A DNA stretch of 64,000 bases, taken from NCBI GenBank assembly GCA_963691705.1, contig OY829543.1, positions 33,131,523-33,195,522 on the forward strand, written 5' to 3'. Origin of the DNA: Viola odorata (lineage: Eukaryota > Streptophyta > Magnoliopsida > Malpighiales > Violaceae). Every line of letters starts with the position of its first letter. Position 1 is the first letter of the stretch. The translations under genes were made by a program, and so were the position numbers. Below, piece by piece: positions 7,710 to 59,985 of the stretch. The notes under the pieces are model-generated. The model was not told the origin of the DNA. It made no database searches and saw only the letters and a list, made by a program, of their open reading frames with translations.

Positions 7710-9730
7710 GTAGATGACCTGTTGGTCACAAGCAAAATATTTGAAGATCATTTGACGGACTTGCAAGAAGTATTTAACGTAATGAAGAAATACCAAATGA
7801 AGTTAAACCCCCGCAAATGCATGTTCACGTTCCAAACGGGAAAATTCCTGGGGTATGTCGTCAGTCAGAGAGGTATTCAGCCCAACCCGTCGAAGATCAA
7901 AGCCATACAGGACATGGTATCTCCCCGAACTGTTAAGGAAGTTCAAAAGCTCACCGAGCGTGTTATTGCATTGGGACGATTTATCTCTAAACGAGGGGAG
8001 GTGTTTACCCTTCTTCAAAGTCATACGGAAAAAGGCTCCTTTCGAATGGATAGATGAGTGTGAAGAGGCGTTTGTCGCCTTAAAAACTTATCTCGCATCT
8101 GATTTGGTGTTGACAAGACCAGAGCCAGGTGATACATTATACTTGTATTTGGGTGTTGCTGATGAAGCAGTCAGTGCTGTCCTCGTAAAAGATTACAACA
8201 GTGTTCATCGCCCGGTATTCTTTGTTAGCCATGTCCTGAAAGATGCCGAATTACGATATGCTCGAATTGAGAAGGTAGCGTTTGCGTTAGTACAAGCCAC
8301 ACGGAAGATGTCACGATATTTTCAATCCCATCTTGTTGTAGTACTCACTGACCAACCATTGAAGTGAATCTTCAGAAGGCCAGAATCTTCCGGAAGGATG
8401 CTGATTTGGGCTATTGAATTAGAACAATTCAGATTACAGTACAGAAAATGCCCATCTGTGAAGGCGCAAATTCTTGCGGATTTCACCGCCGAGTGCACCT
8501 TTACGCCAGATACCTTGATGGATATAACCGAGGAAGAAAGAGCAGGCGTGGATCTTCCGTTCCTTGAGACCTACACTGATTTATGGATTATTCGAGTAGA
8601 TGGAGCAAAGAACCAAGACTCAGCTGGAGTAGGAATAGTAATAAACGGGCTAAGCGGTATACAGATGCGATATGCCATTAGAATCTTACAGTCGTTGACT
8701 AACAACGCTGCGGAATACGAGGCGTTATTGGCAGGACTCCGGATAGAGAGGAGTCTATCCACAAAAGTCATACATGATGCTATAGAATTGGGAGATATAC
8801 GACTCCTAGTATATGGAGACTCCAAACTAGTGGTGGACTAGGTTTTAGGCAACTCCCAAGCAAAAGACCCAATCATGATGCAATATCTTGCCAAAGTAAA
8901 ACGCGAATTGACAGAAATGAGAAAATATGGCATACAAGTGAGTATCGAGCACATCCCTAGAGAAGAAAACACCGAGGCAGATATCCTCACCAAGACAGCG
9001 GCGGACCCCAACACGTTCTTACCTACCGATGTATATTATGAAGAAATATCCATGCCTTCCTTCATGGAAGAACAAGCATCATTGTGTGTGGAAGAGACCG
9101 AGCAAGATTGGCGTATCCCCGTAATAAAATTTCTCAAGCATGAAGAATTGCCTGTAGATAATAAGGAAAAGAAGAAAGTATTGAAATGCGTGGTACGATA
9201 CACGTACTATGACGGCGAATTGATCCAAAAATGTTTTTCACACCCTGCCGCAAAGTGTATAACGGAACAAGAAGGCCTCCATACCCTGCGAGAGATTCAT
9301 GAAGGAATCTGCGGCATGCACTTATCGGGCGACATGTTAGCCGTATAAGTCTTCCGGACAGGTTTCTATTGGCCCACTATCCACAGAGATTGCGAGAACT
9401 TTGTTAAAACTTATAAGAAATGCCAAGAGTTTGCTAAAATCCCTCAAAGACCTGCTACAGAGATCTCAGAAATCATAGCTCCTTGTCCTTTTGCTAAATG
9501 GGGGATTGACATCCTAGGTCCTTTCTCGAAAGCCAGATCTCAATTGAAGTTTGTGGTCGTAGCAGTGGACTATTTTACAAAGTGGGCCGAGGCAAAAGCG
9601 GTAGCCGTTGTCACAACGGAGAGAATATGGCGTTTCTTCAAACATCAAATCATTATGCGATTCGGCGTACCGCGCGTATTAATTAGTGATAACGGGTCAC
9701 AATTCACTAGTCAGTTCTTCAGAGACCAAT
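7710..9730 (+). pseudogene. G2 reverse transcriptase end, RNase H and integrase N-part (broken)
   Basis: The remaining pol continues after the deletion with VDDLLVTS (the YVDD Tyr codon is now the stop at 7707). A frameshift near 8000-8020 is followed by RNase H with IRVDGAKN (8589), AAEYEAL (8710) and YGDSKLVVD (8815); stops replace residues at 8365 and 8839. The integrase zinc region (HEGICGMH, 9300; KKCQEF, 9415) and the first two catalytic Asp motifs (VAVDYF, 9565; ISDNGSQF, 9682) follow, with a stop at 9346. The frame is cut by the G3 LTR at 9731, before the catalytic Glu. Confidence 0.87.
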
Positions 9731-10242
9731 TGATAACCATTGACACCACTCTAGCGACATCTCCGCCATCGCACCTGGCGACAAGGCCAGAACACTGTAC
9801 ATACCAAGGGGGACATGGCACTGCTCCTACCGCCCCTAGCCCGGTGACCGACCCTGGGATGGTCGACATCAGCGGGGGGCTCTCACGCGACATCTGCACA
9901 GCGTCATCCCATCCCATGTCACGCATGACGTCACTCCGTATGACGTCACCTCGCATGACGTCACTCCCTAACACACAAGCGACATCTACTAGGGATAACG
10001 CCTACCCCCTGTAGGTAAGGTCCTTCCTTTACCTATAAATACCCCCACACTTCCAGACAAGGGTAAGCCTAAGACAGCGTGCTGAACCCCTACCATTTTC
10101 ACCGCTCATACTGACTTAAGTATCAGAGTGTTTACGCCGGAGACCCCCTTCGGCGCTTTGCAGGTAACGAAGACACCGGAATAGTGTTCCCGACCAGCCC
10201 CTCATTGGCCGATCTTGCTCAACAAACCTCAGACTCTTATCA
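9731..10242 (+). repeat. G3 5' LTR
   Basis: Begins TGATAACC and ends CTCTTATCA, followed at once by the primer-binding region. Contains three TGACGTCA boxes (9926, 9941, 9956), TATAAAT at 10034-10040 and the conserved hairpin at 10135-10155. CCAAT (9726-9730) would be its 5-bp target duplication, but the right end of G3 is missing so this cannot be confirmed. The solo LTR at 32467-32981 is a reverse-oriented relative with the same three boxes. Confidence 0.9.
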
Positions 10243-10244
10243 AA

Positions 10245-10262
10245 TGGTGCTTTCATTGAGAG
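10245..10262 (+). other. G3 primer-binding region
   Basis: TGGTGCTTTCATTGAGAG lies two bases after the LTR end. The same word lies two bases inside the G5 LTR (28038 to 28021 on the minus strand), and close variants lie in G6 (52904) and G2 (4826). The matching tRNA was not identified. Confidence 0.8.
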
Positions 10263-11707: not shown

Positions 11708-12091
11708 ATGGATGAGCTGACCAGAAATTTCCTGATCTCCAAAGCTTTGACCCTGAAGAACCTCACTGAGGGTGACATCGGATTCCTAGAGAGGATGATC
11801 ACCAAGACCTTGGAGGATGTCCTGGAATTGCAAGGAATGTCAACCCCCATTCTGTCTAGGCAGCTGGGAATGTCACTGGGGGATTTCAGTCCTTTGGAGA
11901 GCTTGGCGAAGTTGGCCGCCACCACTTCCCGCATCGACGTGGTTACTTCTATGCTGCAGTAGAGGAAGGACTTACTAGCCTGCTGCTTGAAGGGTATGAG
12001 GGCCTGTTCTGCCGAATTGACCTCCGTTGTTGATGCCTTGAGAGAGGTTCCCGTCGTGCCAGGAGAGGATGATGCTGGGTCCAACGCTTGA
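11708..12091 (+). pseudogene. A' (G4): antisense gene A, one stop
   Basis: Copy of gene A in G4, 127 codons with one in-frame TAG at 11960-11962 where the other copies have CAG. Conserved blocks are GDIGFLERM, LEDVLELQGM, DFSPLESLAKL and CCLKGMR. It has its own TATAAAT at 11639 and an AATAAATAAA polyadenylation-like word near 12131. I do not recognise the family. It lies 0.2 kb from the G4 LTR, as A does in G2 and G5 (0.2-0.8 kb). Confidence 0.75.
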
Positions 12092-12560: not shown

Positions 12561-12747
12561 ATGCCAGATTTCTACTTTTTGGGTACCGCGGATCGCGACT
12601 CCCTGCCAACCCCTCCGACTTCACCGGACTCAGATCATCCTCCTCCGTCACCACCATGGAGCCCGCCAGCCCGCCTAAAGGACCGCAAGAGGCGGAGGGA
12701 TAAAACCTCCAAGGTGTCTATCGTGCCTTTTGATTTTTCTGGCTCTG
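12561..12747 (+). pseudogene. B' (G4) first part, interrupted by G5
   Basis: The frame encodes the B-type N-terminus (FLGTADRDSLPTPPTSPD, then PPPSPPW and the basic KDRKRRR). After 62 codons plus one base it meets the G5 LTR. The second part starts at 28590. Taking out 12748-28589 (G5 plus one CTCTG copy) keeps the frame exactly, giving 140 codons before the terminal stop, with one internal TAG (28595-28597). TATTTAA at 12486-12492 is at the same place as in the other B copies. Confidence 0.85.
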
Positions 12748-13278
12748 TGATAAGATCCGAGATCTCTTCTGGTCGGAAACGGCTGCAGCAGCTAGTCGGA
12801 TGGGAGGCGATCGGCGTCGGAGGTACCTGCAAGGCGCCGGAGGGGGACTCCGGCGTAGACACTCCGATGCTTAAGTCAGTTCGAGTTTTCAGAATGGTAG
12901 AGGTTCTCCAAGATGATCCCAATCTTACCTTCTGTTTGGAATTCGTGGGGGTATTTATAGGCTTAAGATGGCGATACCTTACAGCGATAGGGGTAGGCAA
13001 CGTTTGTAACCATCGCTTCGGGCGATATCAGTTCCGTCATTGGGGCGATAATCATGTAGGGTCTATCGGGAGCGATATCCTCCTTGGTCCCCTAGGATGG
13101 GATGACGCCGTGCGCATAAAGGTGCATGAGATCCCCCCCCCCCGCTGTAGTCGACCATCCTAGGAAATTTCCGCTGGCCCAGGCGATAGGTTGGCATTTC
13201 AGGGAAGCGTATAGAAACTTGTCCGGGATTGATGCCGTAGCCCCAATGTTGCCGTCAGGAGCATTCCAATTGTTATCA
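12748..13278 (-). repeat. G5 3' LTR
   Basis: 531 bp, TGATAAGATCC to TTGTTATCA. Minus-strand TATA at 12952-12960, hairpin at 12835-12855, GGCGATA words (TATCGCC on the sense strand) at 12970, 13021 and 13044, and an 11-base C run near 13133-13143. Confidence 0.95.
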
Positions 13279-14040
13279 TAAGCCCAACTGAAAACTAGCC
13301 CGAGTGTTCACCAAGGGCTATCCACGTCTGATATCTTAGAATAGGGATCTGCTCGGTCATGAGGCGATATTAATCTTCTTGGCCTCTCGATAGGGCTTAT
13401 GAAGTCTCCACTTCGTTCAAGTCATAGTAGGACCGTTGTTGGGTTACGTGCGGCGTCAGTACGGATATTCAACCAGGCCGTTCCCTAGGCTGGCATATAT
13501 TCGGGGCTATCGTCCTTTCGAGTGTACTGCAAAGACACAGAGGAGATAGATACTTATACAGAGGTTAGCAAACCTTATACTTACAGAGGTCTGAGGTCAC
13601 ACGAGCCCCGATTTATTCTTTACGCCCGAGAGAGTAGCGGTATCAACGCGGCTTTACGCCATCAGCTACCTTATGGTTATCGCGGCTTCATACCACCAGA
13701 CGCCTGTGATGCCAACGCGGTTTTACGCATCTAGGGCCACCGGTGACATCAACGCGGCCTTATACTGTGGATATCGGTAACATTATGGTTTTAGCGTCAG
13801 GGCTACCAGTGATATCGTGTCTTTCGGCATTTTTTCAGACTCTGCCTCGTACTCCTTCCAGTATCTATATCGCGACCGTTACCCCTTTCTTCCGTTCTAG
13901 GCTTATCAGTCCTTGAGGATATCGGGATGGCTCGTCTTTTGAGGACCTCAATTTCTTTTTCCAAGGCCTCCCTTCAGTGGAGCCTATAAATCGGAGAACT
14001 TTCTCCATCCACGTTCTCCTCATCTCTATCAGTCAGCATC
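13279..14040 (-). other. G5 3' end: LTR-proximal motif and gene A promoter
   Basis: On the sense strand the last bases before the 3' LTR are TTTTCAGTTGGGCTTA (13294 to 13279), where a polypurine tract is expected. The rest (13295-14040) has no supported gene; the open frame at 13522-13734 shows only CGCGGTTTTACGC-like repeated words. A TATA box (TATAAAT, 13985-13991) precedes gene A by about 50 bp. Confidence 0.65.
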
Positions 14041-14418
14041 ATGGATCATTTGACCAAGAATTTTCTTCTCTCCAAGGGTCATTCACTCAGGAACCTCAAC
14101 GACGGTGACGTCGGTTTCCTGGAGAACATGCTGGTCAAGACTTCTGAGGATATTCTGGAGCTGCAGGGGATGCTGACTCCGCTCTATTCCCGGCTGGGAG
14201 CCGTCTCTCTGGAGGACTTCAGTCCTTTGGAGAGTGTTTCAAAGCTGTCTGCCTCCATCTCTCGGATTCAAGTGGTGATCGCTATGCTGCAGCAGCGTAA
14301 GGACATGTTGGGGTGCTGCCTGAAGGGGATGAGGGCCACTTCCCATGATCTTATCCTGGTCATGGATTCCTTGAGGGACCTTCCTGAGGTGCCCGAGGAT
14401 GCTGGTTCTGACGCCTGA
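14041..14418 (+). CDS. A (G5): conserved small protein, antisense to gag-pol
   Basis: Intact frame of 125 codons starting at the ATG 50 bp after a TATA box. The protein is rich in Leu, Ser and acidic residues and probably helical, with no signal peptide, membrane segment or known motif. Conserved in all three copies: GD/ADVGFLENM, TSEDILELQ, DFSPLES, SRIQVV, MLQQRKDMLGCCLKGMR and an acidic C-terminus. The pair of cysteines in GCC is invariant except for ACC in G4. AATAAATAAA follows at about 14490. Function unknown; retention in three diverged elements argues for a role in the element. It could instead be a captured host fragment. Confidence 0.75.
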   Translation: MDHLTKNFLLSKGHSLRNLNDGDVGFLENMLVKTSEDILELQGMLTPLYSRLGAVSLEDFSPLESVSKLSASISRIQVVIAMLQQRKDMLGCCLKGMRATSHDLILVMDSLRDLPEVPEDAGSDA

Positions 14419-14746
14419 TAACGGTGGCTCCCTTTGGGCCTTTTTCTTTTCCTCTTGCCTTGTAAATGTATCTTTCGGCCGGTAGGCCATAATAAATAAA
14501 TCGTTTCAATCATTTCGCTTTGTAACTGTTCTTCTTCTTTACTGCGCTCTTTGTCATTTTCCAAGGAATATTCTTAGCCCAACTGAAAACAGTCTTGCCA
14601 TTGGGCGGTTTTTCTGTTGATCATTCTGCCTTAACTCCGCGCCGTCCTCATTATAACAACTGATCGGCAGATATTAGCATTATTCTTGATTTGCGCGAGA
14701 TTTCAACAGGCATGACTGCAAATCTACATTTGTACTTCAGACTGTA

Positions 14747-14816
14747 CACGTGCCAATCTTCAAGAGTCGGGTTGGAGGATCGAAGAGTCTCTTTTCTTCT
14801 TTTCCCGGCTATTTAA
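14747..14816 (+). promoter_or_regulatory. Promoter of gene B (G5)
   Basis: CACGTG at 14747-14752 and TATTTAA at 14810-14816, 77 bp before the B start. The CTATTTAA word is also present before B' (12485) and B'' (37170-37162, minus strand). Confidence 0.5.
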
Positions 14817-14892
14817 TGAGGCTTTTCCTCCTTCATTCTTATCCATTTCTTTCTCCTTCATTTTTCTTCGTTATAGATCCTCTGCGAGTCTC

Positions 14893-15351
14893 ATGGCTGA
14901 TTCTTATTTGCTAGGTACGGCTTCAGGGAATTCACCGCCAACTCCTCCGACTACCCCTGACACAGATAATCCTCCCCCATCGCCTCCTTGGAGGCCGGTT
15001 GTCCGCCGGCGAGGTCGCAAGAGGCGGAGGAAGGAAGTTGAACAACGAAGGAAGGAGGCTGCCAAGGCCTCTAAGTCATTTTTCGACTCTCTGGCTTCTC
15101 TGGCTATGGAGGAGAAAAAATCGTTTCCTCCTTTGAGTGATTCGCCTCCGTGGGTTCCTTCTGCTGGTTCAGCCGTTGATGCAGTATCGCCAAGCGTTAA
15201 GGAGAAAACAACCGGGTCGACTACTGCCGCTAGAAAGAGGGTCGGTGAGTCTTCTCCCCCTGCTGTTGTGGATTCACCATTCTGGGGTGGCGATGACGAA
15301 GAGGACGTAGTCTATTGCTACGGCATTACTTGGTCCGACGGTGAAGAGTAG
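14893..15351 (+). CDS. B (G5): small proline-rich, basic then acidic protein
   Basis: Intact frame of 152 codons. The N-terminus has YLLGTASGNS followed by PTPPTTPD and PPPSPPW, then a strongly basic block (RRRGRKRRRK, about residues 36-50) that could be a nuclear localisation signal, a Ser-rich middle, and an acidic end with YGITWSDGEE. The ends are conserved in B' and B'' (YHYGIYWPDED in G4). A G-box CACGTG (14747) and TATTTAA (14810) lie upstream. The family is not recognised; a nuclear, DNA- or RNA-associated role is only inferred from composition. Confidence 0.72.
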   Translation: MADSYLLGTASGNSPPTPPTTPDTDNPPPSPPWRPVVRRRGRKRRRKEVEQRRKEAAKASKSFFDSLASLAMEEKKSFPPLSDSPPWVPSAGSAVDAVSPSVKEKTTGSTTAARKRVGESSPPAVVDSPFWGGDDEEDVVYCYGITWSDGEE

Positions 15352-15556
15352 GGCCTAACCCTTCTTTTTGTAGATGCCGTATGGCCTTCCTCATAATAAT
15401 GAATGATGGTTTTACTTCCTTTTCGCTTCTCATCGCTTACTTATTGTTTCTTTCTGAGCGTTCCGGGTTATCGCGGAAGCGTCCCTTTCGCTACGGGTAA
15501 CTGCCTTCAACTTCTAATCGGTAACTGTCTTCTTTCAGAAGGCACAAATGACTATC

Positions 15557-15628
15557 CACGTGTCTTTTTCTGTTCTGCACGTGTTTCATTTTTACAGGCT
15601 GTCTCTTCTTTAGGCTTTTCCTTTATAA
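15557..15628 (+). promoter_or_regulatory. Promoter of gene C (G5)
   Basis: Two CACGTG boxes (15557 and 15578) and TTTATAA at 15622-15628, about 190 bp before the proposed start. CACGTG also lies before C' (29055) and C'' (36398-36393). Confidence 0.5.
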
Positions 15629-15818
15629 GGAAATCATCTCTCTCTTTTACTGCTTTTGCTAATATTTTGAGTTTTTGCACATTTTCTCTCTCTTCTGCAC
15701 TTCTTTTCTTCGAGAGGTTTTACCGCGACCGCTCACTGGTGCCGGCGACCGGCTCACTGGCTTTTTGCTCCAGGTATTTACTCCTTCTACCGCCGTAGAT
15801 TTACTTTCCCTGTCCCTT

Positions 15819-18025
15819 ATGTCTTCAACTGCTGAAAACCCCATAGATCCCGAAGCTAGGAGAACTCGCAGCATATTCAATTGTAATGAGGTTTTGAGGG
15901 TTGAATTAGAGGAGAGTGGTATTACTTTTCCCACGGGCTATCGCCCTTTTGTCTCTTTGAAGGACACTCGGCTGCCTGACGCCATGTGGGGAACATTCCG
16001 GTTAGTTTATTTCAAGATGTTTACTTACGGATTCCGTTTCCCACTCCATACTTCTCTGTTGAAACTGCTAGATCATTATGACCTTAATCCCGTCCAGATT
16101 ACTCCACCCTCTTGGTGTGGTATTTACGCTTTCCTTCGTTCGTGCGAGATGAAGCGTATATTTGCTCCATCGCTTGATCTATTCCGCACGTTCTTTGTCT
16201 TGAGTTGTCGCAACTGCCTGGTAGATATTACCCCCAGATGGGATGATGTCATTGTGCAACTGTTCTGGCGGAACTTTCAAGGTTTTGAGGAACACGTAGG
16301 TGACTGGAAGTCTGGCTTTTTCACCCTCCGTTTGCCGTCACGACTCTGGTGCGGGGGTTTCAATCGAAAAATCAATAGTGGCGTTTGGAAAAGACCGGAC
16401 GCGCTGTCAAGCCAGGATGTTTCCAACGTTAGCGCCTTGTTAGAAATAGAAGGGTCTTTCCGTATCCGGGAGTTTGCTCGGTTCAGGCCCTTGTCAGAGT
16501 GCGTTGTGGGTGAGTTCCCTTTTTCTTCTTTATCGCTTCAATCTTCTTATTTTGCTAATATGTTTTGTTGGCAGGTAACGCTGAGAGTAGTTCTTCTGGG
16601 GAAAGTGACGCCCCTTTGAACGTAACACCTCTCCAGTCTCTGCCTCCTTCTCTTTCGCCTGAAAATTCCCGCCGCCCACCCATTCCGCCTGGAAGGGAAG
16701 GGACTAAAACCGTCACAACTCGCAGAGCCTCCACTCGACCTTCTTGTTTCCTTGAAAATTGGCTTCCGTCCCGTGGCAAGAGGGTAGCTCAAGGCGATCC
16801 TGTGTTTGAGAAAATCGACAGCGATAGCGAGAGCATGGACACTGGTCCTGAATTACGTCATGCTACTATTGCCCAAAGGATGAAACTTAGGTCGAGGAGG
16901 AATGATGACACGGCGGAATCGGCTGAGGACGATAGCGAAGAAATTGCAGAAGAGACGGAGCGTCTCGTAAAGAAGGTTCGCACAGAGAAAACTAACCCCC
17001 CAGTTCCCCCTTTGAAGGGAGTTAACGCGGTCCCCCTCGAGAATATTAACGCTTCTCATGCCGCGAGTACTTCGCAAGTGGTGAAAGATATCAAAGCTAT
17101 CAGGGTGCCTTCCGTCGTTTCTATCGAAAACAATGAGACCTCGGCAGCCGCGACCTCTCCTTTGTCGTCGGGCCATCCTGCTTCCCCGATAGGTTCTTTT
17201 ATCCTAGAGGCAACCCTACCGGTTTCGAATTTAAGCGTTCCTCCTGAATTTCTCCCACGGAAGCCTCATCTTTTGTTTCTGTCTTCAATTTCGGGCGTTG
17301 GTGATTGCGCAAAAAGTTGTTCCCCTCCTTATATCGCCAACCTTTCTCCTCAGAGGTCCCAGGGCCCCACTGGATATCAGCTGGATTTGTCCTCTTTCGG
17401 CACTGACGGGCTTCGTGCCTTAGGAATATCGGATCCGTTATCGCGAGAAGAGCCCGTGGGTCCCATAGTGGGACAGATGTTTACCTCTTCCAAGGACAGG
17501 GAAGAGTTTTTACAGCATGCTCCCGAGACACGACAGTCACACATCATGAACGACATGCTGGCTAGCTTTCGAAAATTTCATTATTTTCTTGGAGATCAGC
17601 GTAACAAAACTCGACCCTCTTCGGATTTGCAGGAACAATTAGACGCGGCCTTGGCGAAGGCGAAGGAGCTATCGCAGTTGCAAGAACGAACTCGGGCGGA
17701 GTTGGAGGATTGTCGCGCTGAACTTTCTCGGGAGAAGTCGAAGGGGAAAGCGAGAGCAGAGCTAATAGAGGCGGAACTGGTGGTGGCTGATAAAAAGAAC
17801 GTCTTCCTCCGTGAAGAGTTGTCATCTCGTGATGCCGATTTGGCCAAAGTTCCTTCGAGGATAGCCTGGTGGAAGAATAAGACCATCGAGGTTTGTATCG
17901 CAGGATTTATGGATCTCCATATCCGAGGCGCCGTCGATTCATCCATGCTGGCCGATTACGCTTCCCAAAAAATTAAAGATCTTAGTGAAGGCGAAAGGGG
18001 TTTTCCTTCCTCTGGGGAAAAGTAA
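15819..18025 (+). CDS. C (G5): Transposase_28-like protein with coiled-coil C-terminus, spliced
   Basis: Two exons, 15819-16509 and 16575-18025, joined across a 65-bp GT-AG intron in phase 1, give about 713 residues with no stop. The start is MSSTAENP; an upstream in-frame ATG (15675) is less likely because the relatives align only from here. Residues about 15-230 resemble the 'putative gypsy type transposon' family (FRLVYFKMFTYGFRFPLH, then WCGIYAFLRSCEM). The middle is Ser/Thr/Pro-rich and acidic; residues about 560-660 are heptad-like with many Glu, Lys and Leu (coiled coil). The biochemical role of this family is not known to me; despite the Pfam name no DDE triad is visible. Supported by C' and C'' copies. 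Confidence 0.82.
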
Positions 18026-18680
18026 GGGAATGATGACGGCGAGGCATGCGATGACTCTTAATTGATCCATTGAAGAACATTGCTATTTGTTTTCCATGTC
18101 TTGTAATAACGTCCTATCTCGCGGCGATATCGGTACCTTGCTCTTCGGGCGATATCTTATTTTATTTCGCTCTCTTGTACTGTCTTGAGAACTGTTCTTT
18201 TATTCAACGCCGATTTGCATCATTTCCTTTCTTGTGATATCGCTTTTGCTTTTTATCAAAAAGTCACATCTACTTTTCAGAGCATTTAATGCTCGCGACC
18301 CTTCCGTCGGTGCGCGGGAAAAGTCATGATGGTGCAGACACACGTGTTCGTTTCTTCTGCCACTTTACCTTAGCGTGTTTAGAAATTTTAACAAGATCGA
18401 AGCGTTTGTCGCGCTTCTTCTAGAGTCGTACTCATTGCTTGAGTCTTATCCCTCATGCCGCTTCGACACAACGACTGCAGCATCCGTCGTTTCCTTTTAA
18501 TTACTAGGGTTATAAACCCTCTTTATTTCTTCCCTTTTCTTTTTCACTCCACTTTTTCATATTATCTTTCGGCCGTCTTGTCCTTCTCACCTCCATTCAA
18601 GGCTTTCGAAGTTCTTTCCTTTCAAAGGTATTTCCCTTCTTTTCCCTCGTCTTCTTCATTTCTATTTCCTTAGTCCTGCC
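18026..18680 (+). promoter_or_regulatory. C-D spacer with gene D promoter (G5)
   Basis: Holds GCGATATC words (18126, 18152), the 24-bp element CTACTTTTCAGAGCATTTAA-TGCT at 18270-18293 with an interrupted palindrome (AGCATT-T-AATGCT), CACGTG at 18341 and TATAAAC at 18511. The 24-bp element recurs upstream of D'' in G2 (33772 to 33749, minus strand) with one change, although the surrounding sequence has diverged. Confidence 0.6.
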
Positions 18681-21036
18681 ATGGCAAAGACTCGCCGTTC
18701 TGAGTCAAGATCCATCGATGAGAAGAAAATGGATACCACGGTCAGTGTTATTACCACGGAGGCCATTCTCCAGGAGCATTTGGCTACTCACGGTGCCGTT
18801 ATTCCTGACGGTTACCAAGCTGTTGTTGCCCCTAGGTCAGTTCGTTTAAACAGCGTTCTGACCGGCAATCAAAGGGTCTTATATGCCCAGATGTTTCGCT
18901 ACGGTTTCCGGCTCCCTATCGATTCTTTCGTCAAGGGTTTGCTTATTGCTGGCAATTTCAATCCTGCCCAGTTAGCCCCAAATGCATATTGCTGTGTTTA
19001 TGCTTTTTTGGAACTCTGTAGATATAAGGGGATCACTTCCCCTTCTCTTTTGTTGCTTAGATCCCTTTTTAAATTGATGAAGTGCCGGGGTGTGATAACC
19101 ATATCGCCTCGCTTTGACGATGATTCTCTCAAGTCTTTTACTTGGAAGTTGCTCCATATTGAGTCTTCTGTTGAGGCTTGGAAAAAGGAGTTCTTTCTGA
19201 TAAATCTTCCTGACGCTCCTGGTCCCGAGTGGCGTTCTGGGTTCAACCAGGACGTCCAAGATGGCGTTTGGAGTCGACCAGGGACACTTCCCGCTCGTGA
19301 ACAAGGATGGTTAAACACCTTACTCCAACTGGAGATCAGCGTTCATATTCGACTCACGACCTGTAGAATGGCCATTCAGGAGTGCGTTAGACGTGAGTAT
19401 CGCGCTACCTTTCCCTTTCATCACTGATACTAACGCTGACGTTATTTTGTGATTTTGCAGCGACGGATCCTGATTATAAACCCGAAAGCGTAAGAAGACG
19501 CTTAAGGAGAGCTCAGAATAGAGAAGAAAGGGAAAAGCTCGATTCAGAGGCCACTGATAATCCTTCTGAGCTTCCGGCTACTTCCGCGAATCTCGCTCAA
19601 GTATCCTCCTCCTCGGTTGGCGAAGGGGATACTGACATCCCTGAAGGTGTTCCCATCGTGACCGTTGCTGCTCCCTCGTCTTCTCAGGCCCCTAAGGCCA
19701 TTTCCAGAGGAAAAAAGAAGAAAAGAACACGGAGTATCGCCACTCTTACTCCTTCTCCCGACGCTGCGGGTTCTTCTGAGGCACCACCTTCCCTCAACAC
19801 CGCTACCGTAAGCTTTTTTTTTTTTTTTTTTCGCGATATATTGTGCCTCAATATCTGTCGTCATTTGATCTATTTTTCTTTTTTCTCAATTTGTACTCCT
19901 TGCAGGAGACCGTTGTAGTTACTGCTTCCGCTCCTTCAGGCGATATGAATCTCACTTATGTGCTGAGGGGTTCCGCGAAGAGGGCCCGGATAGAAGGCGA
20001 GGATGAGAACATACCCTCCTCTAACATCGCGGGGGAAGGTGGTTCCGTTAACGTTCCTAATTCCGCAGTGGTTCCTCCAGGTGGACATTCCGCGGAAGTT
20101 TTGGGGGACCTAGGAGGTGCGGACCCCTTTGGTGCTTCGCCCAGTTCCTTTGGTGGGCCTGTGCATCATTATTCCTCTTCTTTAGGCTATCAAGACGTCT
20201 TGCAGGACCTTTCGGGCTATCAGCATCATGGTACCTTCCTGCCCCCGGGCAGTTCTTCTTCACAGGTTCGCGCCCCTGGGCCTCTGGCTTTCGTTCCCTC
20301 TAGCGTTCCTTGGCGGTAACGCTATAATGAAGTCGGAACCTCTTTCAATTTTGTGGCGGATCTTTGTCCATTAAACGGGCTCGGCGAAGTGACCCATCAG
20401 GTTGAGTTGTTCGACTTCCGTGCCCGTGGTTTGGCAGCCATCGGGGGCGATGGTTCAGATGAGGTTTCTGCCCTGCTGGCTTCTCAAATTCTGGCCTCAT
20501 CTGCAGAACGGGAAACTTTCCTTTCCCAGGCGGAAGATGACAAAGTGAACTCCTTCCGTGCTAGCCTTTTCTCCAATATGATGAAATTTCACTACTGGGC
20601 GGAGGAGGTGAAGCATCAGACTGTTTCCCTCCGTTCTGTTTCGGCGGAGCTGTCCAAGGAGCAAGATGAAAGGAAAAAGGTGTTGGCAGATCGTTCCAAG
20701 ATACTGCTGGTTCACCACAATTTACAGAAACAGCATTCCGCTCTGGAAACAGCTTTGTCAGAGGAACAGGCCAAAGTGACTGCTTTGGAGAATGAGAAGT
20801 CCTCTTTAGAAAAGGAGAAGGCAGCTTTGGCGGAAGAGTCAGTCGATATGGGCTGGTGGCATGCTGAACAGACCGCCCGTGTTCTAGTTAAGTGTTTTGA
20901 AGAAATTCATGGGGTGGATGCGTACAAGGGCGAAGATGTCGCGAAGGCCTTTCTACAGAGTTCTGCCCATATCAACGAGGCAGGCTATGGCCAGGCCAAG
21001 GCAGCGGGCTGGAAACGAAAAGACCCCGAGAGCTGA
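18681..21036 (+). pseudogene. D (G5): Transposase_28-like spliced gene with one in-frame stop
   Basis: Three exons, 18681-19392, 19461-19807 and 19906-21036, give 730 codons with one internal TAA at 20317-20319. The D'' copy reads through the equivalent site, so this looks like a nonsense change; a shortened product of about 545 residues is possible. Residues about 20-235 resemble domain C (LYAQMFRYGFRLPID, then YAFLELCRY). Exon 2 is basic (RRRLRRAQNR, RGKKKKRTRS). Residues about 600-690 form a Glu/Lys-rich coiled coil. The first intron interrupts the same GAGTGCGTT context and phase as in C, so C and D are paralogues. A T-run marks the second intron. Confidence 0.78.
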
Positions 21037-22139
21037 TATGTCGCGATATTTTGCCATTCCCTCCAACGATCAAATATCGCTTGGCTTTTATCTTTTGTCT
21101 TTGCGGCATAATTATTTTGAACATTGAATCTTTGTAAATCCTTGAGATGCCTTTAATATTTCTAGACAATCCCTTTATCGATATTCCTCTTTTATTTTTC
21201 TCATCGCGAGACTTCTCTCGTCACTGGGGTTGCCTTATCCTCATGGTGCGTTTACTTTCTTGAGCAGATCCTTGGTGTTTATACCAAGATGACCAAGATC
21301 TATGTCGGGTTGGCCTTTCGATAAGCCTATCGGTATCATGACCACCGCTCCTTCCGCTGCTCAGAAGTATTCTGCACATTTCTAATTGTAGATCATCAGT
21401 AACAAAACGAGATTTGAGAGATAGTGATTACCCGTAGGAGCCTGTTCGCTGCCATCATTAGGCTTTATCATGGAACCCGTTTCGAATCGCGTTTTCCCTC
21501 AGCTCTATACTTCGCCAGGGATTACTCATCCGGTTACTAGCTGGAATTACGCGATCCTTCACGTTTCCCTTATCTCTCGTTCGGCCTTTCTGAGTGCCTC
21601 ATCTCGTGAGCTGTCGGATCGGGACGGCTATCACAAGGCTAGGGAATTTTCACTTTTCTAGGCGTTGTCCTCTTGTTTAGAACCGTGTCCTTACTTAATG
21701 GTTTAGCTGCACCAGCCCGACCGTTAAGATAGGATTCTTGTTTCTAAACAGAGTTTCTAACTCTTTGGGGCGTGTCTTGTCTTGATGTACCGTCTCCACG
21801 AGATCGGTTATCATTAAAGAACTTTTCACTCCCAAAGATACCGGGCAGTGCCCTCACTTAGTGAGCCATCTGATCAAGATCGGTCATCACAAGGATAGGA
21901 CTTTTCACCCCCGGGGGCGTCAAGGATCTTTCAATCCGACGCTAATCAAGGATACACTGGGGTCGTGCCCTCACTTAGTGGGCCATCTGATCAAGACCGA
22001 CCATCACAAGGAGAGGACTTTTCACTCCCAGGGTACCCCCCTTTTTACCTGCACAAAAGCAACCACAAACCCACGAAAACTCTCCTATTGAGCGTTAGCC
22101 ACGGTTAGGGTCGTTATAATCCAAATAGTGCAGATAAAA
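21037..22139 (-). other. G5 spacer between integrase and gene D, with 117-bp repeats
   Basis: Non-coding on both strands as far as I can see. The part nearest the integrase (21780-22050) has a repeat unit of 117 bp marked by CTCACTTAGTGAG at 21853 and a variant at 21970. The segment 21340-21600 is the reverse-complement counterpart of G6 58800-59010. The spacer is therefore ancestral to both elements. Confidence 0.7.
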
Positions 22140-23597
22140 TTAAACTCTAGGATAATATAACTTCAAACGAGCGATATTCCAGGAGTTGGATAAGGGCGTA
22201 CCGTCAAGTGTCTCCAGGCGATAGGCCCCTCTTCCGACAACGTGGGTTACGCGATACGGTCCTTCCCAGTTAGGACTAAGCTTTCCCATACGTTGTCCGG
22301 TTGCTCGCCTGTCTCGGAGCACCAGGTCACCGTTTTTCAACAATCGCTCTTTGACCTGCCTGTTATGATAAGGGGCCATTTTTCTTTTGTAGTGTTGCGT
22401 TTTCAGTAGGACTTCTTCTCGAACCTCTGGTAACGCGTCCAGGTTAGCACGTAACCGTTCCTCGTTCAGTTCCTCACGAAAGTGAGCCACCCGTAGGCTC
22501 ATGGCCCCAATTTCCACTAGCGTAACGGCTTCAGTTCCAAAAGCCAAAGCGAAAGGCGTTTCTCCAGTGCTAACTTTTACGGTCATGCGGTATGCCCACA
22601 TCACATATGGCAATTCATCAGCCCACTTCTTCTTAGACCCCTCTAGGTTTTTCTTAATACCGCTGAGGATGCTCCTATTAGTTACCTCTGCCTGTCCGTT
22701 GGTTTGTGGGTGAGCCACGGAAGAGAATCTCTGCTCAATCCCGAATTCTGAGCATTGGTCTTTGAAGAATTGGCTGGTGAACTGGGTCCCGAATCTCATG
22801 ATAACTTGATGTTTGAAAAAACGCCATGTTTTTTCTGCCGTGATTGTGGCAACCGCTTCAGCTTCCGCCCACTTCGTAAAATAGTCCACAGCCACTATCA
22901 CAAATTTCAGTTGGGACCTTGCCTTTGGAAATGGACCCAGGATGTCAATCCCCCATTTGGCAAAAGGACAAGGGGCGATGATTTCCGATATTTCCGTGGC
23001 TGGACGTCGAGGAATTCTAGCAAATTCCTGACATTTGGGGCAAGCTTGTACATAATCGTGGCAATCCCTTCGTATGGTGGGCCAGTAGAATCCTGATCTG
23101 AAAACTTGTGACGCCATGGTGCCGCCTGACGCGTGCATTCCGCATATCCCTTCATGGATTTCGCGTAAGGTGTGAAGGCCCTCTTGTTCGGTTATACATT
23201 TGGCGGCGGGGTGAGAAAAACATCTTCGAATTAGATCCCCGTTATAGTACGTGCAACGAGCAGCCTGTCTTAGCACTTTTATCTTTTCAGCGTTACCGTC
23301 AAGCAGCTCTTCGTGCATCAGGTATTTTATTACCGGAATCCGCCAATCATTCTCGAGCTCATTCACACACAAAGAGGCTTGTTCCTCCATGAAGGACGGC
23401 ACCGATAGCTCACGATAATACACATCTTTAGGTATAGATGCTTCAGGATTCGCGGCCAGCTTGGCAAGGTAATCGGCTTCAGCATTTTCCTCTCGGGGAA
23501 CGTGCTCGAAGCTGACTTGCATGCCCTCTTTCTTTATTTCCACTAGTTCTCGCGTTACCTTAGAGAGGTACTGCACCATAATAGGTTCTCGAGCCTA
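22140..23597 (-). pseudogene. G5 integrase (second catalytic Asp deleted)
   Basis: Integrase would insert element cDNA into the nuclear genome. Read from 23597 down: end of RNase H linker, the HHCC zinc region (HEGICGMH near 23160, CPKCQEF near 23045), first catalytic Asp in VAVDYF (about 22885), catalytic Glu in QAEVTNR (about 22690) and a GPYRVT C-terminal motif with no chromodomain. Relative to G2 and G6, 30 bp are missing near 22788, exactly the ten residues around the second catalytic Asp (SDNG). The frame stays open to 22140, but the enzyme should be inactive. Confidence 0.9.
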
Positions 23598-25196
23598 AGA
23601 GTGTCTTGAGACCTGGTCAATTATCAGTTTGGAGTCTCCACAAATTTTTAGACGCAGATCTCATGTTTGGCCGGTATCGCGCCTTCCCTTGGAAGAAAAC
23701 TCTCTTCCTATTCTGAGTCCAGCTAGCAACGCCTCATATTCGGCTGCGTTATTGGACAAAGGTTGCAAGATTCGAATAGCATACCGTATATGCATATCGT
23801 GCGGCCCATTTATGAAGACTCCGGCCCCCGCCAGTTCTTGGTTTTTGGCTCCGTCCACATGAACGATCCAAAGATCCGTATATGTTTCTGGGAACGGGAG
23901 ATCCATATCGTTCCATTCCGCTTCAGGTACACCACTCAAAGGGTCCTCTGTGAAAGTACACTCCGCTATAAAATCAGCAAGGACCTGAGCCTTTACGGAT
24001 GGCCGGGACTGGTACCTCAAACCATATTGTTCGAGTTCTAGGGCCCAGATCAGCATTCTTCCTGAAGATTCAGGCTTTCGAAATATCCTCTTCAAGGGTT
24101 GGTCTGTAAGTACAACGATAGGATAAGACTGGAAGTATCGGTCCATCTTGCGGGCGGCTTGTATAAGGGCGAACGCTATTTTCTCAATACGAGCATATCG
24201 CAGTTCCGCGTCCTTTAAGACATGACTCACGAAGTAAACTGGGCGATGAGTGTGGTTATCGTCACGAATAAGGACGGCGCTGACCACTTCGTCTGCCGCG
24301 CCCAAGTACAAGTACAGGGTATCGCCGGACTCGGGCCTTGTCAATAATAAATCGGATGATAAATAGTCCTTTAAGTCCACAAATGCTTGCTCACATTCTG
24401 GGGTCCACCCGAACGTGGCTTTCGGTCGTATGACTTTGAAAAAAGGGAGGCACTTTTCTCCTTGCTTGGAGACGAATCGTCCCAGAGCGATAACGCGCCC
24501 CGTTAGCCTTTGCACTTCCTTAACGGTTCTCGGCGATATCATATCATGTATAGCTTTAACCTTGGAAGGATTAGGCTGGATACCTTTCTGGCTAACTACG
24601 TAGTCCAAGAACTTACCCGTCTGAAATGCAAACATGCACTTCCGGGGGTTTAACTTCATGCGATACCTTTTCATCACATCAAAAACTTCCTTTAGGTCCT
24701 GCAGGTGATCACGAAAATTCGCACTCTTCACCAGTATGTCGTCAACATATGCTTCCACATTTCTCCCTATTTGTTCCTCAAAAATCTTATTTGCCATTCG
24801 CTGAAACGTGGCCCCCGCGTTCTTTAGTCCAAATGGCATCGCTGTGTAACAATACGTGGCTTTAGGAGTAAGGAAGGTGGTCTTCTCCTCATCCTCTAGG
24901 GCCATAGGGATTTGATGATATCCGGAATTGGCGTCCAATGAGCTTAGATATGCGTACCCAGCGGTTTGATCAACCAACTGATCTGTGCGAGGAAGCGGGT
25001 AGCAATCCTTAGGACAAGCATCGTTCAAATCGGTGAAGTCAATGCACATACGCCAATCTCCATTGGGTTTAGGAACAAGAACCGGGTTGGCTAACCAAGT
25101 GGGATACTGTACTTCGCGAATGAAACCCGCGTCAAGGAGCTTTACAACCTCCTTTTCCACAGCCGACGCTTTTTCGGTGGAGAACGCCCGTCAGGG
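23598..25196 (-). pseudogene. G5 reverse transcriptase and RNase H (two stops)
   Basis: Reverse transcriptase has CIDFTDLNDACPKD, SLDANSGYHQI, AMPFGLKNAGATFQR and the active-site YVDD (24749 to 24735). RNase H follows with VHVDGAKN (about 23855), AAEYEAL (about 23735) and CGDSKLIID (about 23635). Two stops break the frame: TGA at 23661-23659 and TAG at 23597-23595, both where G6 has sense codons. The upstream frame is separated from gag-protease by a deletion at 25196. The RT motifs themselves look complete. Confidence 0.92.
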
Positions 25197-27955
25197 TCAA
25201 CGTTAAGCCTGTGCTCGGCTATTTCTCGTGATATACCTGGCATATCGGCGGGCTTCCATGCGAAATTTCCTTGGCATTTGTTCAGCAGCCGTGCTAGTTG
25301 AAGATTTTCCGCTGGGCTGAGCTTATCGCTGACCAGGAAGCTGGCTCCCTCTTTGCCTATCACTGATACGGGTACCATCTTGTCAAGGGGTTGAGCGCGC
25401 TTTTCATCACCCTGCTCGTAGGGGTCTGCCGCTATACACACGTATCTATCGCAGCTTGTCTGAGTCATGAGCGAATAGCATTCTGCCGCCAATTTCTGAT
25501 CACCTTTTATCGATACCACCCCGTCCCAGGAGGGGTATTTCATCTTTAGATGTTTTTGTGATATCGCCGCTCCAAAGCGATTGAGGAAAGGCCGTCCGAG
25601 TATGACGTTATAGGGCAGATTCAGATCCACAACAAGGAACAACAAATTCTCTGACCGTTTGTAAGTGTCTTCTCGGAAGTATACGGGTAAGGTGATTACT
25701 CCCGTAACAGGGATAGGGGTCCCATCCACTCCGACTATGGGTCTCTTACTAGGCGTTAACTCATCGTGGGGGCGTTTCATGAGATTGTAAGCTTCCAGCG
25801 AAAAAAGGTTCACGGCACTCCCGTTGTCCACAAGAGTCCTTCTTATACCATGACTGGCGATGACAGGTGTGACTACCAAGGCGTCATTATGGGGATAGAT
25901 AACGCCTTTTTCATCCTCTTCTGAAAAGGATAAGATCATGCGATCAAGTATGTCTATCGCTCCACCTTTCTTTGTTATGCCGTCTCGCGTACGCTTTTCC
26001 CCTTTCGCCACCATCGACTGTTCTGATTCATCTGCGTAGGGGATCCCTCCCGCTATGATATTGATTATGGGGATGTCGTCGCCATCTATCGCGAAGGTTT
26101 CCCCACCCTTTCCTTTGGGAGCGTTATCCGGCTGTGGGACTGGAGGGGGACTTGGTCGTTCGTTTGCCGCTCTTCTTATCGGATTGTTTCGGGCATCTTT
26201 CCTTACTTGAGTCGCAAATTCTCCCAGATATCCTTCCTCCACCAAGCGTTCTATCGCCCACTTTAATTCTCTGCAAGCCTCTGTGGAATGTCCTCTGGCT
26301 TTATGGAATTTACAGTAAGCGTTTTCTCTTTTGCCTAAAAGCACTCCAGGTTTCGTGGGTGCAGGATAACGGATAGGAAGATTTCGTTGTTCCGCTATCG
26401 CCAAGATCTCCGCTCTTGGTACATTCAAGGAGGGAAAATCCGGATCATACGCCCGATTTTTGTTAGCGTTCCCTTGACGTTGATGAGGGGAACTACCTTG
26501 TTTTCCTTTCGAGGAATTTCCTTTTTGCTTATCGTAGGTCTTTGGGATGTAATCTTTCCGTCGAGCGTAATCATCAGTGTAATGATCGTCAACCAGAGGA
26601 TTTGCGGGAGCGGCAGGGATGTGAGGTGCCCCAGGCGGCATATTAAATGTTCTATTTCTATTTTCTTCTTCTTCCATTTTCGCATAATTATGGGCTTTAA
26701 GTCTTAGTGCGTCCAAGGATATTGGAGGATCCACCATCAATGCATCTTTCAGTTTTCCATAGTGGCAGTTTCTTTTCAGAGCTTCTATGGCGAAATCAAT
26801 AGTAACGCCCGGCGTTAATGACATTTCCAGATCGAATCGGCTGAGAAGTTCTTTCAATGTCTCTTGGGGCTTCCGCTGTATGTCAAATAACGCTGCGGCA
26901 GATTTCCGAATTGGAATTGCTGTACTAAATCTGCTCCGAAATTTGGATTCCAACTGTGCGAAATTACTAATGGATCCGCCAGGAAGACCTTCAAACCAAA
27001 GACGAGCAACTCCCGATAAGGTCATAACAAATATCTGACATAAAGCCGCATCACTGTGGGTTTGAAACTGGACGAAATCCTTCACTTTGTTGATGTGCGA
27101 AATAGGATCTTTAGTACCATCATAAGTATCAGCGGGAAGCTTCACTCGCCTACTGACCCTGTGACGTCTTACACGACGACTGAAAGGGTGACCTGAGGTA
27201 TCATCAAGAATCTCACGCGCATGACGTGGGGGAGATATGTCTCCTTGTCGCCCTCCTTCCCTTGGTTCAGGTATATGATGTCGCCTGGGAGACCGACTGC
27301 GACTCCTGGGAGAACGACTTCGATATCTTCTGCTACTGGATCTTTCACTGTATACGGGAGATAAACTCCTGTTTGTTCCTTCCCTCCGTCCGGCCCAACG
27401 GTTTCTCAACGCCTCAAGCTGCCTGTCTTCCTGCAGAAGAAGTCTTTGCGGCATTTGTGGTACATAAGCCTCTACTCCTCCTTGAGTGAGCTGTACATGA
27501 CCAACCGGGGGATTTCCTGCGGATAAAGGCACTTGGGGGTTCTCTGGAAACAACGGGGGCAGAGGTCGATCAGCAACAATAGATGGTGTGAACATGACGC
27601 GAGGAGGAACGCTAGATCCAGAAGCACCAGGCGTGACTCTAGTGGCCATTTCAGTCAAATATTCCAAGCGGGAACGAAGGGCCGCTATTTCCATAGCAAA
27701 GGGATTTTCATTGTTAAGCACAGATCCTTCTAAAAGAGGAGTGTAAAGATCAGATCCCACCGTCTGTGATGAAGAAATGACCGTCTGTGAGGAGATAGAT
27801 CCTCCGGCGATCCCGACCAAGAGGTCCAGAGGTCCCGAGATAGTCGATTGCGTCGTCATAGAGAGATCAGCAGTAGCAAAAGGAAATAACCGCCTGCGAG
27901 TTGAGAAAGGAATATTGGAAAATGTAGACCGGTCTGGCTCCGATCTGGCTGTCAT
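25197..27955 (-). pseudogene. G5 gag and protease (frameshifted before RT)
   Basis: Start chosen at the ATG at 27955, at the same place after the primer region as in the relatives. About 920 codons stay open. Order: low-complexity N-terminus, Arg/Ser-rich block (about residues 215-240), gag core (DPISHINKVKDFVQFQTH near residue 283, LWFEGLPGGS), knuckle-like CKFHKARGHSTEAC near residue 546, protease LVDNGSAVN near residue 709 and ILGRPFLNRFG near residue 790. A 25-bp deletion relative to G6 after NVDP (about 25196) shifts the frame, so pol could not be made as one polyprotein. Confidence 0.92.
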
Positions 27956-28020
27956 AACCGTTCCGATCTCCCAACTAAACAGAGCTTGGCTATTAAGGAC
28001 GCTCACTTAATACACCAAAG

Positions 28021-28038
28021 CTCTCAATGAAAGCACCA
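28021..28038 (-). other. G5 primer-binding region
   Basis: TGGTGCTTTCATTGAGAG on the minus strand, two bases inside the right LTR. It fixes the orientation of G5 and makes 28041-28584 the 5' LTR. Confidence 0.85.
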
Positions 28039-28040
28039 TT

Positions 28041-28584
28041 TGATAAGATCCGAGATCTCTTCTGGTCGGAAACGGCTGCAGCAGCTAGTCGGATGGGAGG
28101 CGATCGGCGTCGGAGGTACCTGCAAGGCGCCGGAGGGGACTCCGGCGTAGACACTTCGATGCTTAAGTCAGTTCGAGTTTTCAGAATGGTAGAGGTTCTC
28201 CAAGATGATCCCGATCTTACCTTCTGTTTGGAATTCGTGGGGGTATTTATAGGCTTAAGATGGCGATACCTTACAGCGATAGGGGTAGGCAACGTTTGTA
28301 ACCATCGCTTCGGGCGATATCAGTTCCGTCATTGGGGCGATAATCATGTAGGGTCTATCGGGAGCGATATCCTCCTTGGTCCCCTAGGATGGGATGACGC
28401 CGTGCGCATAAAGGTGCATGAGATCCCCCCCCCCTCCCCCCCCCCCCCCGCTGTAGTCGACCATCCTAGGAAATTTCCGCTGGCCCAGGCGATAGGTTGG
28501 CATTTCAGGGAAGCGTATAGAAACTTGTCCGGGATTGATTCCGTAGCCCCAATGTTGCCGTCAGGAGCATTCCAATTGTTATCA
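28041..28584 (-). repeat. G5 5' LTR
   Basis: 544 bp, same content as the left LTR: minus-strand TATA (28252 to 28244), hairpin (28128-28147). The C run at 28425-28449 has grown to 24 C interrupted by one T, against 11 in the other LTR. It is followed by CTCTG (28585-28589). Confidence 0.95.
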
Positions 28585-28589
28585 CTCTG

Positions 28590-28825
28590 CTACTTAGGAG
28601 GGTAGCAAACGCTTTCCTTTGTCTGATTGTTCGCTAGAGAAAACTTCCTCCATTGATGCTGGTGCTGGAACGGTAGTGTCATTTACCAAGGAAAGGTCAG
28701 GCCCGTCAGGGCTCGGCTCGGAGAGGGGAGTGGATGAGCCCTTTTCACTCGCTAACGAGAAGATGCCGTTCCTGGATGACGACGGGGTTTATCATTATGG
28801 CATCTACTGGCCCGATGAGGATTAG
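28590..28825 (+). pseudogene. B' (G4) second part
   Basis: Continues the B' frame after the G5 insertion. It carries one TAG (28595-28597) and ends with the family signature (VDEPFSLANE, then YHYGIYWPDED and stop). AATAAAG near 28872 could be its polyadenylation word. Confidence 0.85.
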
Positions 28826-52348: not shown

Positions 52349-52901
52349 CGATAACAATTAAGACAATCCTAAGGGCATTTCTGTAATTATGACCTCTGCC
52401 GAGGACGGAATCCTATAGCCCTATCGGACATCTAAGCTATCGCCGCTAGACTATGAGGTGTTTTCTGGGATGGTCGACATTTGCGGGGGGGAGGTCTCAC
52501 GCGTATCTACACGCACGGCATCATCCCATCCTAGAGCAGCCACGGCATCCTCCTCGGAGTTATCGCCCTCGGCACCCTCCTCGGAGGTATCACCCGTGAC
52601 GTCAGACCCAGGTATCACCCATGACGTCATAACAGAGCGTTATCTTTCCGAGCTATCGCCTTTCTTGCCCAGATATCGCCCCCAGCGGCCTATAAATACT
52701 CCCTCATTTTAAAACATCAAGTAAGCCTAAGACTGCCTTCTAGAACCTCTGCTATTTTTTGAACCGCTTACTGACTTAAGCATCGGAGTGTCTAAGCCGG
52801 AGCCCCCCTCCGGCGCTTTGCAGGTGTGTCCGACACCAGCTATAGAGACTCTGACCTACAATATTCATCGTCCCGATTGTCTGAAAACTCGAATCATATC
52901 A
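52349..52901 (+). repeat. G6 5' LTR
   Basis: CGATAAC (family TGATAAC with one change) to CATATCA, 553 bp. TGACGTCA boxes at 52597 and 52622, TATCGCC words at 52439, 52561, 52654 and 52674, TATAAATA near 52691 and the hairpin at 52796-52814. Confidence 0.92.
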
Positions 52902-52903
52902 AA

Positions 52904-52922
52904 TTAGTGCTTTCATTGAGAG
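52904..52922 (+). other. G6 primer-binding region
   Basis: TTAGTGCTTTCATTGAGAG, the family primer word with one G-to-A change, just after the LTR. Confidence 0.75.
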
Positions 52923-52988
52923 ACTTGGTCCATTAAGTGAGCGTCCTTAATAGCCAAGCTCTGTTTTACCCGGAGATCAGAACGATCA

Positions 52989-54470: not shown

Positions 54471-54477
54471 AGATCGC

Positions 54478-59724: not shown

Positions 59725-59985
59725 ATAATAAATCCGAACGAAAATTCGAACTCAACTCCCTAAATGGAAATATTTAATTAAAGTCTAAAAGGCTCGTTCG
59801 GACCTAATAGGGGTCTGGCTACAAAATGATAATAAATCCGAACGAAAACCACTACGACGTGTAATAAAATACAAGGGATGAAATGATGTGAACAAAAATT
59901 CGGACTCAACGCCCTAAATGTAAATATTTTATTTAAAGCCTAAAAGCTCGTCCGGAACCTAATAACAGTTCGAAATGACCAAAAA
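59725..59985 (+). repeat. 155-bp tandem unit, right of G6
   Basis: Duplication ATAAT, then a unit shortened by loss of sequence between two CGAACGAAAA words, then a fuller unit from 59828. Continuation of the array at 52188-52348. Confidence 0.8.

Follow-up and report, generated by a model that had tools for sequence, protein, structure and literature searches.

A four-gene module on the complementary strand of a Tat/Retand retrotransposon of Viola odorata, and a short motif dispersed through its family

What are four genes doing on the strand opposite to gag-pol in a plant retrotransposon? The question is raised by a 64,000-nucleotide stretch of the Viola odorata genome (contig OY829543.1, positions 33,131,523 to 33,195,522; hereafter the window), which holds G5, a full-length Tat/Retand-type long terminal repeat (LTR) retrotransposon at 12748-28584 on the minus strand. 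Genes A, B, C and D of G5 all lie on the plus strand between integrase and the 3' LTR, as an initial annotation of the window had proposed and as the located open reading frames (ORFs) and predicted exons bear out. Judged by sequence comparison, this module is a coding and conserved feature of G5's lineage. Extra ORFs in Tat-type elements, which the same annotation took as known, are indeed standard for Retand: antisense TRP28 (PF04195) ORFs are a hallmark of that lineage (PMC11963269), with maize Grande gene23, rice RIRE2 and Silene Retand as examples (reviewed in PMC7264820). These ORFs are widespread and their function is a long-standing puzzle, which a multi-gene module together with a candidate target makes testable. 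New here is an over-representation of GCGWTA throughout the elements, coding sequence included, that is densest in the LTRs.

The module and its conservation

Gene A (14041-14418) is a single exon of 378 nt encoding 125 aa, with a TATA box at 13985. Gene B (14893-15351), likewise a single exon (459 nt, 152 aa), encodes a basic, proline-rich protein and is preceded by TATTTAA at 14810 and a G-box at 14747. Gene C comprises exon 1 with a TRP28 domain (15819-16509; G-boxes at 15557 and 15578 upstream), a predicted intron with GT/AG borders (16510-16574) and exon 2 (16575-18025). Gene D has two predicted introns (19393-19460 and 19808-19905), also with GT/AG borders, between exon 1 with a TRP28 domain (18681-19392; G-box at 18341 and TATA at 18511 upstream), exon 2 (19461-19807) and exon 3 (19906-21036), the last of which carries an in-frame stop at 20317-20319 in the G5 copy. 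All these features are on the plus strand.

The domain scan covered five sequences: A, B and C, and of D the first exon and the terminal part. C matched PF04195 at E 8.1e-12 (45.6 bits) and D exon 1 at 7.6e-7 (29.7 bits; cut-off 26.2), A and B had no domain match above cut-off, and PF10536, the domain of the Ogre-type plant-mobile-domain ORF, gave no match at E ≤1 in the five module sequences. C and D are paralogues, with 33-35% identity over ~218 columns and 23% over a second stretch, and one intron position is common to C and D of G5 and their counterparts C', C'' and D'' (a single prime marks genes of the neighbouring element G4, a double prime those of G2). A is predicted to form a two-helix hairpin (mean predicted local distance difference test score, pLDDT, 88.6); a fold search with this model was uninformative, with best E-values of 0.12 (PDB) and 0.071 (viral) and none at 0.001. 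Neither A (18 candidates) nor C (7,986 candidates scored) found a homologue at E 0.001 among 5.8 billion proteins. C, a member of a known plant family, gave no match there, which suggests that plant element proteins are scarce in this database, so these blanks carry no weight as evidence of absence. Scans of viral contigs with A and with the first exon of C confirmed none, and Rfam at gathering threshold and a tRNA scan found nothing.

A tblastn search of the window recovered A-B-C in G4, which is truncated, and A-B-C-D in G2, which is diverged from G5, in the order that the initial annotation had described and in agreeing orientation. The E-values were 1e-59 and 3e-49 for A and 4e-129 and 3e-76 for C. 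B matched more weakly (B'' 1.5e-6, but 0.048 and 0.10 for the halves of B'; against a smaller target set, 1e-8, 1e-19 and 0.001). Identity between G5 and G2 is 69.8% in A, 54.9% in the A-B spacer, 51.6% upstream of C and 47.6% in the C-D spacer, as compared to ~43-44% for shuffled sequence.

To follow the module further, 699 Mb of the genome in 26 contigs was searched with A, which gave 6,772 loose first-look candidates, of which the best 150 were scored; a second search gave 6,885, again with 150 scored. A lacks stops in 149 of the 150 from the first search, a share biased upwards because these are the best matches. From them 20 G5-family copies, picked by A protein, were fetched at 9 kb each. 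The module is collinear in 19 of the 20, and D is visible to its end in 18; one fetched stretch (L018) ends within D, and another copy (L016) retains A, B and part of C. A and B, whose occurrence in other Tat copies had been left for checking, are present in all 20, B being broken in seven. A is open in 19 copies, B in 13, D in 11 and C in eight (over the length of G5's C), and all four are open in a single copy. Because the eight copies with otherwise open C run past its stop, C of G5 may end slightly prematurely. The two-gene splicing proposed at the outset agrees with these copies: intron borders are kept in 20/20 for C and 19/20 for D.

The TATA and G-box signals attributed to several of the genes are likewise present and largely kept. 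TATA-like boxes lie at -56/-69 in A/A', at -83/-75/-77 in B/B'/B'', at -195 in C (15624) and at -170/-174 in D/D''; none was seen near A'' (one at -299) or for C' and C''. G-boxes occur at about -260 in C, C' and C'' and also upstream of D, D'' and B, with none upstream of A, A', A'', B' and B''. Eight of the window's 12 CACGTG sites fall within the 450-nt upstreams of 11 gene copies (shuffle mean 0.4; 0/500 reach 8). Across the 20 copies the TATA is kept in 20 (A), 19 (B), 17 (C) and 19 (D), and the G-box in 17 for B, 17 and 10 for the two boxes of C, and 19 for D.

In the between-element comparisons of A, the opening 48 codons of B and the first exons of C and D, the proportion of synonymous differences (pS, 0.61-0.82) is near saturation, against 0.15-0.34 for that of nonsynonymous differences (pN); after codon 48 of B, pS is 0.67 and pN 0.44, with codon positions alike. 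As a control, pol of G5 and of the relative E gives nonsynonymous and synonymous rates (dN and dS) of 0.06 and 3.1. Further comparisons rest on four less diverged copies, L020 and L025-L027. Against L020, dN/dS is 0.05 for A, 2.15 for B (3 synonymous and 19 nonsynonymous changes; Fisher 0.31), 0.18 for C and 0.19 for D; against L025-L027 it is 0.04, 0.91-1.04, 0.35-0.41 and 0.36-0.43, respectively. Pooled over 13 of the 20 copies, all close to G5, the ratios are 0.24, 0.41, 0.51 and 0.56. By these codon comparisons A, C and D are under purifying selection and B is weakly constrained. The outcome that would have spoken against the initial annotation, neutral ratios in all four genes, is excluded: A, C and D are constrained, as are the first 48 codons of B between distant elements, and B as a whole is not distinguishable from neutral against these four copies. 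Synonymous divergence also differs strongly among A, B, C and D of single copies (L020, L025-L027), which suggests that modules are recombinant or mosaic; we therefore give no age per copy.

A dispersed motif and its subfamily types

Ranking of 6-mers against a second-order Markov model, in a search for possible target sites, placed GCGATA at the top in G5 (44 vs 6.8 expected) and in E (52349-59725; 19 vs 3.6), and GCGTTA first in G2 (12 vs 2.5), second in EL (7 vs 1.3) and third in G4 (7 vs 1.4). The 44 GCGATA sites of G5, together with 19 GCGTTA sites, lie in 12748-28040. Three window stretches outside the delimited elements (21.9 kb, one with a gypsy reverse transcriptase (RT) fragment) show no excess of either 6-mer (3 vs 4.6 and 3 vs 3.9), nor does the 20-kb left flank, which is without G5-protein matches (3 vs 5.2 and 5 vs 4.8); in the right flank, where Tat matches and a motif-bearing tandem array occur, the figures are 10 vs 4.6 and 20 vs 5.0. 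The extended form GGCGWTATC is matched exactly 16 times across the window, vs 0.52 expected, and two exact GGCGATATC motifs stand 25 bp apart in the C-D spacer (18123-18156, plus strand).

The excess extends into coding sequence: G5 has 26 coding sites vs 6.2 (standard deviation 2.3, largest 13) in 1,000 synonymous-codon shuffles, and in a second run of 200 shuffles GCGATA was ahead of all 6-mers there. By gene, with the number of shuffles of 1,000 reaching the count in brackets, there are 7 sites in gag (4), 6 in RT (0), 3 in integrase (11), 6 in C (1) and 1 in B (38). Density is 11.3/kb in the G5 LTR vs 2.9-4.6 in other G5 parts, and E, G4 and G2 show the same tendency. Motif sites overall occur on both strands; the six TATCGC (GCGATA) sites of the G5 LTR all point the same way and precede the sense TATA box, the closest at a distance of 17 nt. 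Other LTRs have 5 and 6 sites (E), 4 (G4) and 2 (G2). The sister 6-mers GCGCTA and GCGGTA are not clearly raised in G5 and E. Motif sites are shared between G5 and E more often than control NCGWNN sites (9/30 vs 55/564, p 0.0026), and retention between G5 and L020 is borderline (13/30 vs 115/455, p 0.051); because of the common ancestry of the copies, the sites behind these motif counts cannot be treated as independent.

Which form of the motif prevails depends on the subfamily: in the G5 family it is GGCGATATC, whereas the remaining subfamilies sampled mostly carry GGCGTTATC. Within the window GCGATA:GCGTTA is 63:28 in G5 and E vs 8:26 in EL, G4 and G2 (Fisher 5.6e-6), the exceptions among exact 9-mers being one GGCGATATC in EL and one GGCGTTATC in G5. 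GCGATA is dominant in all 20 G5-family copies (23-29 vs 3.2-4.4). Ten divergent copies, chosen from the 150 scored among the 6,885 candidates of the second search, total 70 GCGTTA vs 11.5 and 15 GCGATA vs 10.0; without the tandem units of one of them (L037, described below), GCGTTA stands at 61 vs 10.8, the top of all 6-mers. Copy by copy, its rank is first in five, second in one and 13th-218th in four. For the 9-mers, GGCGATATC:GGCGTTATC is 56:1 in the 20 G5-family copies and 1:18 in the ten divergent ones. The LTR stretch from TATA to 15-mer could be delimited in six of the ten and has 3-5 sites in each. At L030:221-569, in a flank with Tat matches, a tandem array repeats the 26-bp unit GATAACGCTGACGGTGAACCCGAACA about 13 times and carries GATAACGC.

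Readings of the module

The explanation we favour, tentatively and at a little short of an even chance, is that a protein of the module, of TRP28 type, binds DNA in the nucleus and so regulates the element's own LTR, acting through GGCGWTATC. We favour such a self-recognition regulator because TRP28 has been published as a putative DNA-binding regulator and the motif offers a candidate target; TRP28 is predicted to bind DNA and its regulatory role is hypothesised (PMC11963269), and an antisense promoter of its own is reported for Grande (PMC7264820). Kept splice sites and promoter-like motifs suggest that each gene would be transcribed from its own antisense promoter, with C and D spliced; antisense introns can survive reverse transcription because the genomic RNA, being sense, does not contain them as introns. 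The proteins would act in the nucleus, where C and/or D, possibly with B, may bind GGCGWTATC across the element, chiefly upstream of the LTR TATA box. Binding would raise LTR transcription or shield the element from silencing, and A could serve as a coiled-coil partner. A further step, which we consider unlikely though worth stating, is that Retand-type elements have a self-recognition system: their antisense TRP28 proteins would read a tag of nine bases, GGCGATATC or GGCGTTATC depending on the subfamily, which is scattered through the element and clusters upstream of the LTR promoter, and would thereby activate or de-silence their own family, tag and reader changing together at subfamily splits. 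If so, the solution found by VANDAL DNA transposons would have arisen in LTR retrotransposons as well, with a bearing on how a few families come to fill plant genomes.

Several observations weigh against this explanation. The tie between module and motif is co-occurrence in one lineage only, E having the motif without the module, and motif type tracks whole-element relatedness. The coding excess is due to gag-pol and C, with no site in A and three in D (reached by 78/1,000 shuffles, not significant); the antisense promoters show no motif concentration, and among eight LTRs compared a solo LTR has no site and LTR F one. The structure model of the C domain is unusable (pLDDT 43) and yields no DNA-binding fold. 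B is indistinguishable from neutral against L020 and L025-L027 (0.91-2.15) and near neutral in sublineages, and choosing the 20 copies by A protein pushes A's ratio downwards.

Persistence of the motif in E, where no module lies between the pol end and the 3' LTR, would suit an arrangement in which the accessory proteins are real but the reader of the motif is a transcription or chromatin factor of the host, the module serving in nuclear import of the pre-integration complex, RNA handling or insertion-site choice. Grande GENE23 is nuclear, and roles like those of retroviral accessory proteins have been proposed (PMC7264820). We regard this as quite possible, if less than probable; it explains the LTR sites but accounts less easily for the excess in gag-pol and C coding sequence or for the one-base subfamily difference. 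The motif excess might instead have no function and stem from mutation or composition (through CpG retention or common descent), and the non-independence of sites in G5, E and the fetched copies, with the borderline retention in the second pair, would fit. We consider this improbable: the excess holds under both the second-order Markov and the codon-shuffle controls, GCGCTA and GCGGTA do not follow it, sites shared by G5 and E exceed their controls, and other subfamilies differ in prevailing type. Antisense LTR transcripts can form double-stranded RNA and trigger silencing (PMC7264820, PMC12786077), so the transcripts could work as RNA, also by interference with the sense transcript, with the ORFs incidental; protein-level constraint in A, C and D at nearly saturated synonymous sites, and the kept intron borders, make this very improbable. 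Hardly credible is the chance carriage of a nested element or of a block of genes captured from the host. The gene-like introns and promoter-like motifs would suit it, but position and order relative to pol, 15-mer and LTR are constant in diverged elements and many copies.

For the favoured self-recognition regulator, the nearest model is VANC, the anti-silencing protein of the VANDAL elements, which binds its motif and removes methylation, although membership fails on protein domains: the VANC domains DUF1985 and DUF287 were not found, PF04195 alone being above cut-off in the module sequences scanned. An element-specific short motif with subfamily types is found here as there. A foamy virus encodes Tas, an accessory trans-activator with LTR-binding logic, and the likeness to the G5 module is one of logic only. 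The same holds for HBZ of human T-cell leukemia virus (HTLV; cited in PMC11963269), an accessory regulator coded antisense; G5 differs in having four genes. Arabidopsis VANDAL elements share with G5 an enriched 9-base motif with one-base subgroup types (C-type/T-type there, GGCGATATC/GGCGTTATC here), and one motif-carrying tandem array lies near the window (L030); they differ in being DNA transposons, whereas G5 is an LTR retrotransposon, and the VANC motif is mainly non-coding, whereas GGCGWTATC, here a candidate target, is also in coding sequence (PMC5735166). In the literature searched, no case could be confirmed of a plant LTR element that itself makes a factor activating or de-silencing its LTR.

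With published Retand elements G5 has in common the antisense PF04195 ORF between pol and 3' LTR (C and D) and a long pol-3' LTR region, which runs from the integrase stop (22140) to the 3' LTR (13279-22139) and at 8,861 bp exceeds the 2,933-6,566 bp of the PMC11963269 survey. G5 differs in its two paralogous intron-bearing TRP28 genes, plus A and B. A and B (378 and 459 nt) are too short for the ORF cut-offs used in PMC11963269 (600 bp) and PMC6317226 (250 codons). The initial annotation's view that such a module is not a standard description stands as far as main texts go, which yielded no description of A, of B or of a spliced C-D pair.

G5 and its neighbours

The LTRs of G5, delimited by alignment of the pair, are at 12748-13278 (3') and 28041-28584 (5'), both minus strand, and are flanked by the target-site duplication CTCTG (12743-12747 and 28585-28589). 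They are identical at 527/545 alignment columns, and the insertion is young, as they differ by only 3 substitutions and 15 gap columns. ORF list and domain scan place gag-pol at 22140-28006 on the minus strand, with gag at 25142-28006, RT-RNase H at 23661-25160 and the RVT_3 end plus integrase at 22140-23579. ORF coordinates give an in-frame stop in pol at 23661-23663. Between RNase H and integrase, the place of the archaeal-type RNase H expected of the Retand lineage, an RVT_3 tail adjoining integrase, where the ORF is cut by an in-frame stop, scores E 8.5e-4, under the cut-off (19.7 bits vs 21.6).

G5 inserted inside B' of G4, which is split into 12561-12747 and 28598-28816; A' (11708-12088) has one stop, C' runs from 29315 to a last match at 30701, and tblastn of the window saw no D in G4. 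In G2, A'' (37961-37584) is an open frame, B'' (from 37091) is broken further on, C'' (~36124-34120) has several stops, and D'' (33352-30744) has stops and a solo LTR within it. This solo LTR (32467-32982) has an AACAG duplication and is 86.5% identical to the LTR at 9730-10252. The relative E (52349-59725) shares ~80% identity with G5 across pol and the sequence immediately after it. We dropped E as a candidate replicating module-less element, its region before the 3' LTR being too altered to time loss against insertion.

The 15-mer AGCCCAACTGAAAAC lies at the LTR edge of G5 (13281-13295, plus strand; exact in 19/20 copies), where in sense orientation it occupies the place of the polypurine tract, and a second exact copy lies between A and B (14576-14590, plus strand; exact in 17/20, with near-copies in G4 and G2). 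Written as AGCCCAACYGAAAAY, this 15-mer stands at the LTR edge and again ~130-160 nt past A in G5, G4 (11509 and 12221) and G2 (38139 and 37439). With up to three mismatches, the first is found in 9/10 divergent copies and the second in 9/10. For the inner 15-mer, candidate roles are an additional primer site for the plus strand, a remnant of a former 3' end and a B promoter element. At L037:1201-3741 (G000:C4 near 33184215), three A genes stand in tandem ~1.08 kb apart, with motif sites and the 15-mer before each.

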